Shown here: positions 35,515 to 46,940 of the stretch, piece after piece | Layout of the letters: every line of letters starts with the position of its first letter | How positions within the stretch are numbered: the first letter of the stretch is position 1 | Assembly (NCBI GenBank): GCA_016934635.1 | Contig: JAFGSK010000072.1 | Coordinates: forward strand, 1-64,000 | DNA: 64,000 nucleotides | Source of the DNA: Caldifarciminota bacterium | Lineage (GTDB): Bacteria > Hydrothermota > Tepidihabitantia > B3-TA06 | Direction: 5' to 3' | Program-made: the position numbers and the translations under genes | The notes under the pieces: generated by a model | The model's input: the letters and a program-made list of their open reading frames with translations, nothing else | Databases searched by the model: none | Told to the model about the DNA's origin: nothing

Positions 35515-37905
35515 ATGCTTAGGAAATTAGTGGGGATACTTCTGGGGGTGTTGCTTTTTTCCTCTCTAACCGCCCAGGAGTTTTCGATTTTCTACTTGGC
35601 TTCCCCAAACGGGACGCTTACCTGGTGCCGCTGTCCTGAAGATCCCTACGGCGGTCTTCCGCGAAGAGCCTCCGCGATAAAAGAAGCGCAGACTAATGAA
35701 TCATCCTTGCTCATACTCGATGCAGGCGACCTGCTTGCCCCCTTTCCTTCAAGGCTCAAGGATTCCGTGTTCGTGGAGGCATACTCGAGAATACCTCTGG
35801 ATGCGGTTGCCTTCGGGGATCAGGAACTCATCGACGGCTACGATTTCTTCTCGCAAATGCTAAAGCCAAGAATCCCCTTGATCTCAGCGAACGCCTTTAA
35901 GGACGGGAAGAGGCTCTTGCCTGCCTACAAAGTGGTCCAAAAGGGAGGGGTGAGGATCGTGGTTACGTCCCTAATCACCCCTGAAGCCTTTATCTTCTAC
36001 GATCCTGAGGATTTGGGTGGTGTCGAAGCCTCAGATCCGGTACGCGAACTCGAAGCCCTGATGCCTGAGTTGCGCTCGAAGGGTGACGTGATAGTTCTTC
36101 TGTCCCACCTCGGTTTGGATACCGAACGAAAGATCGCGGCTCAGTTCCCGGATATAGACATAATAGTATCCGGACACATCCCGGGGCGTCTTGATACACC
36201 CGAGCAGGTAGGTTCAACCTTCATCCTCGGAGCAGGGCTAGACGCCAAGTACTTCGGTCTGGCCAGATTCAACCTTGAGGACGGCTCACTCGGGCTTTTA
36301 GACAACGAGATTACCGCGCTTTCAGATAGATACGAAGAAGAACCTTCGATACAGAGGATAGTTGCACCTTACATCGAGATGGATGACGGCCAGATCGACT
36401 CGGTCTTAGTTGATCCTGATACAGTAAGGGCTGAGCACAAGCCGGTTCTCGTCCACGCGTTCTACGCACCTGACTGTCCGCACTGCATGCGGATACTCAA
36501 GGTCTTCCTGCCCAGGTTAGCCGAGCGCTACCCCGGGCTTTTTGCGCTGGAGCCGCACAACATAGATGTCGCAGAGGAATACAACCTACTCGTCGAGTGG
36601 GAGAAGAGGTACGGTGTTGAAGAACAGGATATACCGGTGCTCTTCTTTGAAGGTAACGTACTGGGTGAGGAAGAGAATATAAAGCGTGATTTGGAAAAAC
36701 TTCTTTTAAGTGTACGTCCCCGATACTCGGCTCAGGATTCGTCGAGCCACGCAGGCGAGGAACTGGTTGTTGCGTTAGATACCTTGTTATCGACAGATAC
36801 CTCAGATACCTTGATAGGGGAAGGCGATGTGGAGGTCGTTTTCTTCGAGACGTTCGGGTGCGAAGAGTGCGACCGGGCACGCTACTGGCTGAAGGCCGTT
36901 TCCGCCGAAGATTCGAGCCTCGTGATTCGGGTCTTAGATGCAAACGACCCTTCCTCGAAGATCCTTCTGTCAGCGTTCGGGATAGTCTACGGCATCGACA
37001 AGAAGGAAGTCTTGATTACGCCCATCGTGTTCGTAGGCAAGGGGTATCTTACCAAAAAGGATGTTTCTTCCGAAAACATCAGCTGTCTCATTGGTGAACA
37101 TCGATTCGAGAAGATCCCCTGGGATGAGGTAGAGAAAGCAAAAGAGCAAGGTCACGAGGAGATAATCACCCAGTTCGAGACATTCGGAATCCTTCCTATT
37201 ATTGGCGCAGGCCTGCTTGACGGAATAAATCCGTGCGCGTTCGCGACCCTCATTTTTTTTATCACCTACCTGTCGGTACTGGGTGTAGAACGCAAGAGAG
37301 TAATATGGGTTGCAATTCCCTTTATCCTGTCGGTCTTTCTTACCTATCTGATTTTAGGCTTTGCAGCTTACCAGATCCTCGAATTCCTTGAGGTCATCCA
37401 GATCGTTTCACAGATTATCTTCGGCCTCACCGTTTTATTCCTTCTGTTCCTTGCCGGGATGACCTTCTACGATTACTCCCTGCTCAAACGAGGTAAGGCT
37501 GAGAAGATGACCCTAAAGCTGCCTGACCGTATACGCAAAGCTATGAACAAGATGATCCGAAAGCGGACCGCATTCGGCGGTTTCATCGTCGGTGCCGTCA
37601 TCACAGGCTTCCTGGTTTCCCTGTTCGAGCTTGTCTGTACTGGTCAGGTATACCTGCCTACCCTAGTGTATGTGGTCCAGACTACGGAGAAGTGGAGTAA
37701 GGCGTTAGTATATCTCGTGATATACAACATTGCATTCATCGTTCCCCTGGTTGTAGTGTTTATCCTTGTTCGCTTCGGCCTGACCGAAAAGCATTTACAG
37801 CATTTCCTTACCCGTAATGCCGCCTTGACAAAGATACTCACCGGCATACTATTTCTTGTGTTGGCTGGAGTAATGGCGTACTTGTTGATAAGAGGAGTCC
37901 TATGA
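35515..37905 (+). CDS. metallophosphoesterase-thioredoxin-DsbD-like fusion protein
   Basis: This is a 796-residue protein with at least four parts. After a signal peptide (KLVGILLGVLLFSSLTAQ), residues about 20-270 match a 5'-nucleotidase-like metallophosphoesterase (LILDAGDLL, VLLSHLGLDTERKIA, IIVSGHIPG), though the GNHE motif is altered to GDQE. Two thioredoxin-like domains follow, with CPHC (FYAPDCPHCM) and CEEC (TFGCEECDRA). From about 555 six or more helices form a DsbD/CcdA-like electron carrier with the two membrane cysteines in GINPCAF and ELVCTGQVYLP. It probably passes electrons from cytoplasmic thioredoxin to the periplasm. The stop overlaps mnmG (ATGA). Confidence 0.82.
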   Translation: MLRKLVGILLGVLLFSSLTAQEFSIFYLASPNGTLTWCRCPEDPYGGLPRRASAIKEAQTNESSLLILDAGDLLAPFPSRLKDSVFVEAYSRIPLDAVAFGDQELIDGYDFFSQMLKPRIPLISANAFKDGKRLLPAYKVVQKGGVRIVVTSLITPEAFIFYDPEDLGGVEASDPVRELEALMPELRSKGDVIVLLSHLGLDTERKIAAQFPDIDIIVSGHIPGRLDTPEQVGSTFILGAGLDAKYFGLARFNLEDGSLGLLDNEITALSDRYEEEPSIQRIVAPYIEMDDGQIDSVLVDPDTVRAEHKPVLVHAFYAPDCPHCMRILKVFLPRLAERYPGLFALEPHNIDVAEEYNLLVEWEKRYGVEEQDIPVLFFEGNVLGEEENIKRDLEKLLLSVRPRYSAQDSSSHAGEELVVALDTLLSTDTSDTLIGEGDVEVVFFETFGCEECDRARYWLKAVSAEDSSLVIRVLDANDPSSKILLSAFGIVYGIDKKEVLITPIVFVGKGYLTKKDVSSENISCLIGEHRFEKIPWDEVEKAKEQGHEEIITQFETFGILPIIGAGLLDGINPCAFATLIFFITYLSVLGVERKRVIWVAIPFILSVFLTYLILGFAAYQILEFLEVIQIVSQIIFGLTVLFLLFLAGMTFYDYSLLKRGKAEKMTLKLPDRIRKAMNKMIRKRTAFGGFIVGAVITGFLVSLFELVCTGQVYLPTLVYVVQTTEKWSKALVYLVIYNIAFIVPLVVVFILVRFGLTEKHLQHFLTRNAALTKILTGILFLVLAGVMAYLLIRGVL

Positions 37906-42782: not shown

Positions 42783-42822
42783 TACTTGATGGCAGCTCAG
42801 TTAAACATCCGGAAGGTTCGTG

Positions 42823-43266
42823 ATGGCTCAGACAGGTGAATACGGGGAGGTCTTGAGTGTCGAAGGCCCATTAGTCAAGGTTAAGATGAAACAGCACGTA
42901 AGCTGCGCATCGTGCGCTCAGCACAGGATTTGTTTTCCTACTGGAAGATACAGGGTTCTAATCGCCCAGGCAGGTAAAGGGATCAATGAAGGCGATACCG
43001 TATTTGTCCTTTTTCGTTCAGGTCCGGCCATCATCTCATCCCTTTTGATCTTCGTGGGTTCTGTTGTAGTTCCTCTTACGGCATGGCTTGCAGCCGATCT
43101 CGCAGATGCCCCGAAGTGGGTTGCGTTCACCGCTGCAGGTGCAGCACTTATAGTATACTGGGCGTTCTTGTACCTCTTGAATCGCAGGTTAAAAAGGTCC
43201 GGATGGTTTTTACCGTGCGCCGTAAAGGGAACCGAACCTGTCGAAGAAAAGGAAAAAGAAAAGTGA
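42823..43266 (+). CDS. rseC: SoxR-reducing-system protein RseC family
   Basis: This is a 147-residue protein of the RseC/MucC family: an N-terminal soluble domain with the cysteine cluster CASCAQHRICFPTG, then two membrane helices (AIISSLLIFVGSVVVPLTAW and AFTAAGAALIVYWAFLYLL) and a charged tail. RseC proteins take part in Rnf-linked electron transfer to SoxR Fe-S clusters or in envelope stress control. Here no Rnf genes are adjacent; instead it heads an Fe-S/sulfur-type operon. GTGA couples it to the next gene. Confidence 0.85.
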   Translation: MAQTGEYGEVLSVEGPLVKVKMKQHVSCASCAQHRICFPTGRYRVLIAQAGKGINEGDTVFVLFRSGPAIISSLLIFVGSVVVPLTAWLAADLADAPKWVAFTAAGAALIVYWAFLYLLNRRLKRSGWFLPCAVKGTEPVEEKEKEK

Positions 43267-44435
43267 ACGAGATATATCTGGATAACGCGACCACGACCCG
43301 GCTCGATCCATGGGTGCTTGAAGAGATGAAGCCTTTATTCACAGAGGAATTTGCAGCGCCGACAGGTCACTTCGGGCACCAGGCTTCGCTGGATGCCAAG
43401 GATAGGCTTGAGCAAGCTCGTGTCACGGTTGCCGGTTCCATCAATGCAGAACCTGACGAGATTGTATTTACCTCAGGGGGTACCGAGGCAAACAACCTGG
43501 CTCTACAGGGTTTGATCAAGACAAGGAAGGAAAAGACCCATGTTGTTACCACAGCGATTGAGCAGGAGTCTGTCCTCAATACTTTGAAGGTTTTGGAAAA
43601 GGAAGGTAGGATTGAGTTTACACTTGTTGGCGTGGATCCAGACGGTCTCCTCAAGCTCGAGGAACTTACCTCGGCCTTGCGTTCAGATACCGTGCTTTGC
43701 TCGGTTCACCTGGTCAACCACGAGGTCGGGACGGTTCAGCCGATCGAAGAGGTAGGTAAGATTTGCGCGGATAGAAAGATACCTTTGCACGTCGATGCCA
43801 TTTCAGGCTGGGGGTACGTACCGTTTGACGTTAAGAAGATGAATGTAGCGCTGGCCTCGCTTACCGCACACAGGATTCACGGACCCAAGGGGGTCGGGAC
43901 TCTTTACCGGCGCAAAGACGTGAAGCTTGCACCCTTGATGTACGGAGGTTACAACGAATTTGAATTAAGGCCCGGGATGGAAAACCTGCCTGGTATCGTC
44001 GGGATGGCCAAGGCGATCTCGATGATCAAACCAGCCCACATCAAATACCTGGCCGGCCTAAGAAAGATGATGTGGGACGCAATAACCAAAGATATTCCTT
44101 GGGTTCATCTGAACGGCTCAAAAGAGAACGGTGCGCCTTATATCCTCAACGTAACCTTCGATTTCATCGAGGGTGAGTCTATCCTTCTGCATCTGGATAT
44201 GCAGGGGATTGCAGCAGCTACAGGCTCTGCCTGCTTTTCCAAGGCGCTTGAGGCTTCCTACGTACTCTTGGCAATGGGCAGGCCTCACGAACAGGCCCAC
44301 GGCTCGATGCGTTTCAGCTTTTCACGGTTCAATACCGAAACCGAGATTGAGAAGACCCTCGTGGTAATAAAAAAGGTGGTTACTGATTTGAGAAAACTTT
44401 CACCCCTCACCCCGGATAAGGCCAAGGAGGTATAG
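43263..44435 (+). CDS. NifS/IscS-like class V protein lacking the PLP lysine
   Basis: This is a 390-residue protein of the cysteine desulfurase fold: IYLDNATTTRLDP, FTSGGTEANNLALQG, LVNHEVGTVQP, HVDAISGWGY and the active-site cysteine loop GSACFSKALEASYVL (Cys324). The Schiff-base lysine position (HK in NifS/IscS) is Arg204 (TAHRIHGPKG). The His that stacks on PLP is Gln101 (AIEQESV) and the DATQ glutamine is replaced (DAIS). It therefore may not work as a desulfurase. GTG 43263 overlaps the rseC stop; the longer frame to 43083 lies inside rseC and is rejected. The next gene is its IscU-type partner. Confidence 0.85.
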   Translation: MNEIYLDNATTTRLDPWVLEEMKPLFTEEFAAPTGHFGHQASLDAKDRLEQARVTVAGSINAEPDEIVFTSGGTEANNLALQGLIKTRKEKTHVVTTAIEQESVLNTLKVLEKEGRIEFTLVGVDPDGLLKLEELTSALRSDTVLCSVHLVNHEVGTVQPIEEVGKICADRKIPLHVDAISGWGYVPFDVKKMNVALASLTAHRIHGPKGVGTLYRRKDVKLAPLMYGGYNEFELRPGMENLPGIVGMAKAISMIKPAHIKYLAGLRKMMWDAITKDIPWVHLNGSKENGAPYILNVTFDFIEGESILLHLDMQGIAAATGSACFSKALEASYVLLAMGRPHEQAHGSMRFSFSRFNTETEIEKTLVVIKKVVTDLRKLSPLTPDKAKEV

Positions 44436-45080
44436 ATGGGGCTTCCCTATTCCAAGAAAGTGATCGAACATTTCAAGCATCCCCGCAACGTAGGAGAGAT
44501 TACCGATGCGGACGCGACCGCCCTGGAAGGCAGCCCGGCATGCGGCGACATGCTCAAACTAACCATCAAGGTTGACGAGGAAACCCACGTTATTACCGAC
44601 ATTAAATTCGAGAGCTTCGGATGTGCCTCGAACATCGCTACAGGTTCTATACTTACCGAGATGGTAAAGGGGCGAACAATCGAGGAGGCTGAGAAGGTTA
44701 CCTGGAAGCAGGCAGCAGATGAACTGGACGGGTTGCCTCCGGTTAAGATGCACTGCGCGGTACTAGCGATCGATGCCTTGAAATCAGCCATCGAGCAGTG
44801 GAAAGAGAGGCACGGGTTGACCGAGAAGGAGCTGACCACGCCGGATAGGGTTCTGCGCAAGCTTCGTAATGTGCTCAATCCGTTGACCGGCGCTTCAATC
44901 GTTCGTATGCAGCTTCTGCAGGATTTCGACGTGAAGGACGGTGTAATTACCATCGACCTTGATCTTACAAGGGAGCACAAATTTGCAGCACACATAGAGG
45001 AGGAGATTCACGAAAAATTAGACCACTTGTGGGACGTGAAAGAAGTAAAAATCAACTTTGTAGGCAAACCTGATTCCTGA
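44436..45080 (+). CDS. IscU/NifU-type scaffold fused to MIP18-like domain
   Basis: This is a 214-residue Fe-S assembly protein. Residues 1-130 match IscU: YSKKVIEHFKHPRNVG, the cluster ligands in SPACGDM (Cys and Asp), FGCASNIA and KMHCAVLA (His-Cys). After a linker, about 135-210 match a MIP18/DUF59 (SufT-like) domain (VLRKLRNVLNPLTGASIVRM...VTIDLDLTREH) without its usual cysteine. IscU and MIP18 domains are normally separate proteins. All three cluster cysteines of IscU are kept, so it can carry clusters. RBS AAGGAGG; the start directly follows the NifS-like stop. Confidence 0.88.
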   Translation: MGLPYSKKVIEHFKHPRNVGEITDADATALEGSPACGDMLKLTIKVDEETHVITDIKFESFGCASNIATGSILTEMVKGRTIEEAEKVTWKQAADELDGLPPVKMHCAVLAIDALKSAIEQWKERHGLTEKELTTPDRVLRKLRNVLNPLTGASIVRMQLLQDFDVKDGVITIDLDLTREHKFAAHIEEEIHEKLDHLWDVKEVKINFVGKPDS

Positions 45081-45109: not shown

Positions 45110-45943
45110 ATGTTTGAGGTGGTTGTACGAAGAAAAGGTCATATAGAATATATTGATGAATCCTGCTTGGGGGTGGAAGAAAGATACTTGGCTCTTGGCA
45201 GGTTCATGTACTTATGGTCCGGGGAATTGGAGATAGACTACCGGGTTGAGGAAGGATTACTGATCATAAACGACAAGTTAGCGGGTATTGATTTTATAGA
45301 GCGTAAGGATTTAGCTTCCATCGACTGCGGTCAAGTCGTTACCGTTTCCTGCAAGGCTTCAGAACCTTTCCAGGATCTCTCGGATTTTCCAGGACTGAAT
45401 GCGGTGAGAATTACCGGAGACCTGGATAGAGTCTATCCGTTTGTAGAGAACCTTCAGAGAATCAAGAACCTCAAGCTGCTGTGGCTAGACGGGAGCGGAC
45501 TAGACGACGCGGGTTTAAGATACATCGCCAAATGCAAATCTTTGAAGGTGTTGGGCCTGGTTAACGCCGGGATAACCGATAAAGTGCTTGCTAATCTTTC
45601 CAGATGCAGACAGTTGAGGGTGCTCGACCTCTCACGGGTGAAGACCGTGAAAGGCTTCGGATTGAAAGGCCTCAGGAAACTCGAGCTTCTCAAGCGACTC
45701 GTACTTTCTTCAAGTGGAATCAACGACTACAGCCTGCGGTATCTTGCGCCGTTGTATCGTGTCCAGGAATTGTTCCTGGATAATATAGAAATCACAGATC
45801 AAGGTGCTCTTATCCTTGGAGCCTACAAGAACCTGAGATATCTCGACTTGAGAGGAACTATCATCGATTCAGAGCAGTTGACAAGCCTAGTCGAAAGGCT
45901 GCCTGAATGCACGATAATAACTGACGATACTCGTGAGGCCTGA
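45110..45943 (+). CDS. cytoplasmic LRR protein of the YPWQGED family
   Basis: This is a 277-residue leucine-rich-repeat protein. Residues 1-90 form the family's N-terminal domain, here with YLWSGELEIDYRVEEG where relatives have YPWQGEDxIxY. From about 100, 24-residue repeats run to the end (SGLDDAGLRYIAKCKSLKVL, AGITDKVLANLSRCRQLRVL, SGINDYSLRYLAPLYRVQEL, IEITDQGALILGAYKNLRYL). Unlike its relatives at 3432 and 24829 it has no signal peptide. It sits inside the Fe-S operon (RBS CAGGAGG), where it may act as a protein-binding adaptor; that role is inference. Confidence 0.78.
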   Translation: MFEVVVRRKGHIEYIDESCLGVEERYLALGRFMYLWSGELEIDYRVEEGLLIINDKLAGIDFIERKDLASIDCGQVVTVSCKASEPFQDLSDFPGLNAVRITGDLDRVYPFVENLQRIKNLKLLWLDGSGLDDAGLRYIAKCKSLKVLGLVNAGITDKVLANLSRCRQLRVLDLSRVKTVKGFGLKGLRKLELLKRLVLSSSGINDYSLRYLAPLYRVQELFLDNIEITDQGALILGAYKNLRYLDLRGTIIDSEQLTSLVERLPECTIITDDTREA

Positions 45944-45947
45944 CCTG

Positions 45948-46940
45948 ATGCCCGAGCCGCGAATACTGCTTTTATTCTCAGGAGGGCTGGACAGTCTTCT
46001 GGTCGCGCGTGTTTTAATCGAGGCTGGTGCAAAGGTAGAAGCCCTGCATATCGTAACACCTTTTACCGGAAATATGCAAAGGCTTGCAGGTGAGCAATAC
46101 CTTACCAAGTGGGGGATTTCTTTAAGGCGTATCAGGATCGATGTCAATGAATTCCGCCCGCTTCTTGAGTCACCTCCTCACGGCTTCGGCAGGGCTTCAA
46201 ACCCCTGTATCGACTGTAAGATTCTATTCCTGAGAAAGGCCAGGGAAATCATGGAAGATGAGGGCTTTGATGCTGTAGCCTCAGGCGAGGTGCTTGGTGA
46301 GCGTCCCATGAGCCAGAATAGAGTGGCTCTGAATAAGATCGAACAAGAATCAGGATTACAGGGATACTTGTTGCGTCCTTTGTCTGCACGGCTTCTCGAA
46401 GAGACCGTAATAGAAGAGAAACGTCTGATTAAACGAGAAAAACTCTTGGCAATTGAGGGCCGAAGCCGAAAGCCTCAAATGGAACTTGCCAAGAGATGGG
46501 GTATAGAAGAGTATGCAACACCCAGCGGAGGCTGCCTTCTTACCGAGTCTCAGTACTGCCGCAAGCTCAAAGACCTCATGGTGCACGGCGAGGATACGGA
46601 AGAGTCAGTTGCGCTATTGAAGACAGGCAGGCACTTCCGTCATGATGAGGGGGCAAAGTGTATCGTTGGCCGTAACGAGGATGAAAACGCAGAACTTGGC
46701 AAACATACAGGAGACGATCGAATCTTCCTCGAGGTCAAGGGAATCGGCAGTCCCCTAGGTTTGCTTGTAGCTAAGGCGTCATCGTCTCGGATGATCGACT
46801 GGGCTGCAGGAATCCTAGCCCGTTACTCGGATGCAAAGAACGAAAAAAGAGTAAACGTAACCTGGTGGGGCAGGGGTGGCGAAGAGACCGTATCGGTAAT
46901 ACCCTTAACCGATTCCGAGATCAAGGGCTCGAGGATCTGA
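45948..46940 (+). CDS. PP-loop tRNA thiolation-like enzyme with NFACT-R-like tail
   Basis: This 330-residue protein has a PP-loop ATPase fold (LFSGGLDSLLVARVL) with cysteines in NPCIDCK and the motif YATPSGGCLLT, as in MnmA/ThiI-related tRNA sulfurtransferases. From about residue 230 a domain resembling the NFACT RNA-binding region (DUF814) follows (RHFRHDEGAKCIVGRNEDEN, FLEVKGIGSPLGLLVAK). It is probably a tRNA or RNA thiolase that takes sulfur from this operon, but the target base is unknown. ATG 45948 follows the LRR stop; an in-frame GTG at 45933 is an alternative. Confidence 0.75.
   Translation: MPEPRILLLFSGGLDSLLVARVLIEAGAKVEALHIVTPFTGNMQRLAGEQYLTKWGISLRRIRIDVNEFRPLLESPPHGFGRASNPCIDCKILFLRKAREIMEDEGFDAVASGEVLGERPMSQNRVALNKIEQESGLQGYLLRPLSARLLEETVIEEKRLIKREKLLAIEGRSRKPQMELAKRWGIEEYATPSGGCLLTESQYCRKLKDLMVHGEDTEESVALLKTGRHFRHDEGAKCIVGRNEDENAELGKHTGDDRIFLEVKGIGSPLGLLVAKASSSRMIDWAAGILARYSDAKNEKRVNVTWWGRGGEETVSVIPLTDSEIKGSRI

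Follow-up and report, generated by a model that had tools for sequence, protein, structure and literature searches.

The window, by which we mean the whole 64,000-nucleotide stretch of DNA analysed here, encodes a NifS/IscS-like protein in which the Schiff-base Lys, the PLP-stacking His, the O3'-binding Gln and a phosphate-binding Thr have all been replaced, while the mobile-loop cysteine is retained. From its sequence and by analogy with characterized relatives, this protein is probably a former cysteine desulfurase: a desulfurase-dead IscS that would now act as a Cys-bearing partner of IscU, as either a cluster ligand or a persulfide relay, with sulfur supplied from elsewhere. ISC-type systems are normally described with a cysteine desulfurase as the sulfur source. 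The residue losses, the selection acting on the gene, its clade, its partner and its neighbors are direct observations of this work; the inactivity of single-substitution variants of E. coli IscS (PMC9978102) and the A. fulgidus structure with a Cys ligand are results of others. The gene and the positions discussed below are as follows.

43263..44435, + strand: NifS/IscS-like protein of the GSACFS clade with a degenerate PLP site (GTG start, 390 aa, no internal stops)
43563..43565, + strand: Gln101 (CAG), at the position of the PLP-stacking His
43803..43805, + strand: Ser181 (TCA), at the position of the O3'-binding Gln (DAxQ in canonical sequences)
43872..43874, + strand: Arg204 (AGG), at the position of the Schiff-base Lys (motif TAHRIHGPKG)
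43977..43979, + strand: Met239 (ATG), at the position of the phosphate-binding Thr
44232..44234, + strand: Cys324 (TGC), the conserved mobile-loop cysteine (motif TGSACFSKAL)

A NifS/IscS fold with an altered PLP site

The class V aminotransferase fold is present (PF00266, 221.9 bits), and the protein aligns unambiguously and over its full length with solved NifS/IscS structures (E values down to 9e-89). An AlphaFold2 model (mean pLDDT of 87), which bears on the fold alone and is silent on whether PLP fits the pocket, gives TM scores of ~0.9 against the structures of IscS from E. coli (1p3w) and A. fulgidus (4eb5); the Cys loop (residues 323 to 329) is modeled with low confidence, as a mobile loop would be. 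The first-pass annotation had described an intact desulfurase core and Cys324 loop, with Arg204 and Gln101 in place of the Lys and His, and each of these points was confirmed. Met239 was missing from its list of altered residues. Its counterpart in E. coli IscS is Thr243, which reaches over from the opposite subunit to bind the phosphate of PLP. Three further PLP-site residues (Asn152, Asp178, and Thr74) are retained.

The four substitutions are more than chance variation, since His, Gln, Lys, and Thr are invariant at these positions in all 23 canonical proteins of the comparison set and the scores of the window protein fall far short of the NCBIfam cutoffs for both NifS (407.6 bits against 530.75) and IscS (348.3 bits against 643.2). 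Among the features expected of an active desulfurase, the fold and the loop Cys were found, and the Lys, the stacking His, the O3' Gln, and scores above the NCBIfam cutoffs were not. Lys209 of the HGPKG motif was set aside as a substitute for the lost Lys because canonical enzymes have Lys209 as well. A pseudogene or frameshift was also weighed as an account of the gene and set aside.

In E. coli IscS, the H104Q, Q183E, and K206A substitutions each abolish desulfurase activity, while R354K retains it (PMC9978102). The window protein is altered at all three essential positions, and its His-to-Gln change is identical to H104Q. Judging from these residues, it is very likely without desulfurase chemistry. 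Compared with E. coli IscS and NifS, it shares the fold, the active-site Cys loop, and the pairing with IscU but differs at all four of the PLP contacts listed above.

Conservation of Asp178, Asn152, and Thr74 suggests that some cofactor or ligand may still be bound. This conservation also speaks for a protein that remains a PLP enzyme, either holding PLP noncovalently or catalyzing another PLP reaction with Arg204, as do the PLP still partly held by the K206A variant of E. coli IscS (PMC9978102) and the PLP present in the structure of A. fulgidus IscS (PMC9769115). We nonetheless regard such an enzyme as quite unlikely: the four PLP contacts listed above have been lost jointly, which goes beyond the changes in A. 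fulgidus IscS, and the three inactive E. coli variants count against it as well.

The GSACFS clade

A phylum-wide search retrieved close orthologues (70 to 76% identity) from 7 other genomes of the window's family, all 7 of which carry the Lys; they include the same-genus sister G063, in which His101 is also present. Because the sister keeps the Lys, its loss in the window is a recent and independent event of the window's own lineage. Across the phylum, the loop pattern GSACFSxxLE(A/P)S was matched in 25 of 147 genomes, with no control matches. The Lys is present in 17 of these 25 members. Of the 8 that lack it, five have Arg (the window and four members of family f12), two have Thr (G003 and G126), and one has Leu (G015).

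Further members were found on genome contigs from Methanosarcinaceae, a Heimdall archaeon, Anaerolineae, Dehalococcoidia, other Chloroflexi, and a deltaproteobacterial MAG; in every member added by this search, the Lys is replaced by Thr, Leu, or Val. The loop motif occurs in 81 of 186 Methanosarcinales genomes (no control matches). Among 40 Methanosarcinales copies, a set that includes a few genes counted twice with different flanks, Thr replaces the Lys and His replaces the Gln in all 40, and Asp replaces the His in all 39 that are readable at that position.

When the tree was computed with the active-site columns removed and with Methanosarcinaceae represented by L041 and L044, these proteins formed a clade with support of 100/99. 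Its signature is the loop GSACFS (canonical, GSACTS), which is invariant in all 18 aligned members. Parsimony on this tree places three Lys changes in the clade (the window; G015; and f12 together with the Thr/Leu/Val branch). Two more, in A. fulgidus IscS and in a protein from Nitrospirae, bring the overall number to five. A quick tree that included the active-site columns gave four changes in the clade and six overall, and we accordingly report at least three Lys losses in the clade. The protein is not an isolated case: its Lys loss is one of several, and Lys-less forms of IscS had already been reported from A. fulgidus and, as IscS1, from M. acetivorans (PMC7585200). The clade is wider than reported in the searchable literature, and the window protein is a new bacterial member. 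Outside the clade, a NifS-like protein from Nitrospirae (L090 4722-5891) has Leu at the Lys position, Gly at the His position, and Asn at the Asp position; it represents a further independent Lys loss and adjoins a plain IscU.

Residue counts across 36 clade members indicate how the PLP site may have changed. The Gln is kept in a single member, so its absence from the DATQ motif of the window protein, although correctly noted, is not particular to that protein (35/36). The His is kept in 12 of the 17 Lys-bearing members versus 1 of the 19 Lys-less ones, and the equivalent of Thr243 in 13 of 17 versus 2 of 19. Since 16 of the 17 Lys-bearing members already lack the Gln, we infer a stepwise change of the PLP site in which the Gln was lost before the Lys. 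The equivalents of Asn155, Asp180, and Cys328 (Asn152, Asp178, and Cys324 in the window) are kept in 36/36. In a rank test, substitution at the PLP contacts did not differ significantly from that at other columns invariant in canonical proteins for the members with the Lys (P = 0.54), and the difference was weak for those without it (P = 0.02). Other canonical positions have changed in the clade too, and our case is therefore argued from specific residues and not from a general excess. With 17 of 36 members keeping the Lys, and 12 of those 17 also the His, the family as a whole may still include desulfurases.

The protein is under purifying selection and is maintained, as pairwise NG86 estimates of dN/dS indicate. 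The value is ~0.09 for the window against its sister, which is approximate because dS is saturated; 0.08 to 0.10 for the Lys-to-Leu case, which is better calibrated; and 0.03 to 0.14 within Lys-less lineages. In the tree without active-site columns, the window branch is no longer than that of its sister. Several active-site losses could be expected of a decaying, functionless gene, but the intact open reading frame, the low dN/dS, the unexceptional branch length, and the retention of the clade across great distances make decay extremely unlikely.

The comparison with other genomes also bears on the codon itself. AGG differs from AAG by one base (43873), the assembly is a single metagenome-type assembly, and the Lys is found in G063 and six other family members, all of which would fit a consensus or assembly error with Lys (AAG) as the true codon at 43872. 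We consider such an error improbable. Gln101, Ser181, and Met239 are also noncanonical in the same protein, the Lys is absent from other clade genomes too, with concordance in multigenome families (f12 and Methanosarcinales), and Gln101 together with Ser181 would predict an inactive enzyme even if the Lys were present.

The IscU-DUF59 partner and the gene neighborhood

The genes flanking the NifS-like gene are as follows.

42820..43266, + strand: RseC/MucC-like gene, overlapping the NifS start by 4 bases; conserved upstream in family f1
44436..45080, + strand: fusion of an IscU scaffold (PF01592) and a C-terminal DUF59/FeS_assembly_P domain (PF01883); ligands C36, D38, C63, and C107 kept
45110..45943, + strand: LRR protein; conserved downstream in the same genus only
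45933..46940, + strand: PP-loop (ThiI/LarE-like) protein with an NFACT-R_2 domain; conserved downstream in the same genus only

The IscU start follows directly on the NifS stop. A tight operon with an IscU-type scaffold and a PP-loop protein had been described from the window, and the order RseC-like/NifS/IscU/LRR/PP-loop bears this out; the link to the PP-loop gene, however, is genus-level, and the constant partner is IscU-DUF59. The LRR and PP-loop genes follow the pair in G063 and were not found downstream in the other genera of the family, where some flanks are short; NifS-IscU is the sole pairing of the operon that is conserved clade-wide. A shared operon and a ThiI/LarE-like domain might otherwise suggest that sulfur is handed specifically to the PP-loop protein for tRNA or cofactor thiolation instead of Fe-S assembly. 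Given that linkage to the PP-loop gene is confined to one genus, whereas IscU is the partner throughout, we find this very unlikely.

The IscU-DUF59 fusion adjoins every clade member with a readable flank as well as 40/40 Methanosarcinales loci; its position is exceptional in L048, where it lies ~1.5 kb downstream, and in L045, where it is one gene further away. Among the other loci, it was found solely in L079 (Micrarchaeota) and L115 (Cloacimonadota). The cluster ligands C36, D38, C63, and C107 (window numbering) are kept in 26/26 partners. At L115 5001-6158, the fusion stands beside a divergent NifS-like gene that is interrupted at codon 9 by an in-frame TGA (YLDN*LTS) and whose product keeps the Lys and has replacements at the His, Gln, and Thr contacts. 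Elsewhere in the window, positions 35515-37905 encode a 796-aa protein with metallophosphatase-like, glutaredoxin-like, and DsbD-like membrane regions (weak Pfam matches below the cutoff).

The pair of IscS-like protein and IscU-DUF59 is inseparable across phyla, and degenerate enzymes can survive as binding partners. The protein could accordingly be a structural partner that stabilizes or gates IscU-DUF59, with Cys324 unused for sulfur or cluster chemistry. This is unlikely in our assessment, as Cys324 and the GSACFS loop are kept throughout while the PLP contacts vary, and a pure binder needs neither.

Genes for two sulfur carriers, tusA (PF01206, with the CPxP Cys) and dsrE (PF13686, with a conserved Cys), adjoin the pair in 12 of the 13 tree rows of the Lys-less archaeal/Chloroflexota branch, the exception being G003. 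This adjacency spans Methanosarcinales, Chloroflexota, a Heimdall archaeon, and G126, and the two genes lie directly beside a Lys-less iscS-iscU.DUF59 pair at, for instance, L041 4271-4949, L297 9292-9967, and L162 5990-6649. A tusA gene alone stands beside the Lys-bearing genes of f16 and f29 and beside that of G015, an f16 member without the Lys; f26 has a TusA-like gene lacking CPxP near the pair. Overall, at least 20 of 36 clade rows have tusA, with two f26 rows under the match threshold. Neither gene was matched in the 64 kb of the window or found beside f12 or f28 genes, and neither occurs beside any of 73 canonical loci. The arrangement tusA-dsrE-iscS-iscU.DUF59 is undescribed in the searchable papers, a body of literature outside which most subscription papers fall.

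Known relatives, proposed role, and sulfur supply

The closest described counterpart is the IscS1-IscU1 pair of M. acetivorans. According to Table 1 of PMC7585200, IscS1 (MA0808) is a 42.2-kDa protein with the motif 318-STGSACFS-325, and IscU1 (MA0807) is a 24.2-kDa protein. The Methanosarcina locus recovered here encodes products of 42.2 and 24.3 kDa, with the motif at position 318 and an IscU-DUF59 partner, and matches IscS1-IscU1 as far as that table describes the pair; the recovered copy of IscS1 is 44% identical to the window protein. PMC7585200 describes IscS1 as lacking the PLP lysine and suggests a function like that of A. fulgidus IscS; its passages on this protein give the missing residues without mention of the clade, of a fusion to DUF59, or of tusA and dsrE as neighbors. 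The M. acetivorans pair and the window pair share the GSACFS clade, the missing PLP residues, and a 24-kDa IscU partner. They differ in the residues at the Lys, His, and Gln positions, which are Thr, Asp, and His in IscS1 but Arg, Gln, and Ser in the window protein. They also differ in that tusA and dsrE lie upstream in M. acetivorans, while neither adjoins the window gene.

In A. fulgidus IscS, Asp takes the place of the Lys and there is no desulfurase activity (PMC7585200; PMC9769115); Cys321 of this protein ligates the [2Fe-2S] cluster on IscU in the IscS-IscU crystal structure (PMC9769115; Pagnier 2015, by its title). Structures are deposited as PDB entries 4EB5, 4EB7, and 4HVK, with the D199K mutant as 4R5F. 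Like the window protein, it has replaced the Lys and kept the IscU partner; it nevertheless branches among the canonical IscS proteins, still has the His, carries the loop GSACSS, and represents an independent loss. The minimal ISC system (MIS), consisting of IscS and IscU, is described with a cysteine desulfurase (PMC12192291). The window pair is likewise a two-gene IscS-IscU unit without carriers, but its desulfurase site is lost and its scaffold bears DUF59.

A role as persulfide carrier or scaffold partner had been proposed at the outset. Subject to five corrections, the core of this proposal stands: loss of desulfurase activity is very likely, and a Cys-bearing IscU partner is the best reading of the sequence. 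Under this reading, the protein would have given up PLP chemistry while retaining the NifS/IscS fold, the mobile-loop cysteine, and the IscU partner. Its homodimer would dock on the adjacent IscU-DUF59 scaffold, and Cys324 would either ligate the [2Fe-2S] cluster transiently while it forms, in the manner of Cys321 of A. fulgidus, or relay persulfide sulfur made by others. The sulfur might derive from free sulfide, from a SufS-type desulfurase, or, in the archaeal and Chloroflexota relatives, from TusA and DsrE.

Extended to the clade, a tentative proposal, possible but short of probable, is that GSACFS proteins belong to a distinct Fe-S/sulfur-delivery system with the full form tusA-dsrE-iscS*-iscU.DUF59, in which a PLP-free IscS fold passes sulfur from TusA/DsrE or sulfide to IscU; the window would then hold a recently converted bacterial member. 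If so, the usual direction of transfer from IscS to TusA would be reversed in this system. The clade could also be the missing sulfide-dependent route of M. acetivorans, which was found to manage without SufBC (PMC10500019) and does not require IscSU2 (PMC7585200). Because M. acetivorans is in the clade and genetic tools exist for it, cluster building that needs neither SufBC nor IscSU2 becomes directly testable. The clade would also naturally separate two roles of IscS, the making of sulfur and the lending of a Cys to the scaffold. As a caution, "NifS" annotations in uncultured bacteria and archaea may not denote desulfurases.

The genome of the window (3.33 Mb, 90.7% complete) contains an alternative source of sulfur. 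A search for another desulfurase identified a SufS-type candidate, C90:7684-9009, with the Lys, His, Gln, and Cys in place and conserved family-wide; CysK and a second IscU-like protein are also encoded. SufB gave no match in this genome, with positive controls, and was not found in 22 of the 25 clade genomes of the phylum, leaving the window's IscU as a main scaffold candidate. Sulfur could be supplied by SufS or by sulfide; in E. coli lacking IscS, clusters can be built on IscU from H2S under anaerobic conditions (PMC13015791). In G126 (94% complete), which has SufB and whose clade member (G126:C12:42804-43961) has Thr for the Lys, no further IscS- or SufS-type gene was found at the thresholds used, making this genome a good case for a sulfide-only supply.

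The second IscU-like protein (G000 contig 82, L166 5013-8900) is clustered with two NifX/NafY-like proteins, which we named by eye from the sequence and take to resemble the iron-molybdenum cofactor biosynthesis family. MRP-type ATPases with ferredoxin domains, also assigned by eye, lie in the same cluster. Directly 3' of the SufS-type gene, L001 2759-3157 encodes a Cys-containing protein of 132 aa that has no NCBIfam match and is possibly an unusual SufU/SufE-like partner.
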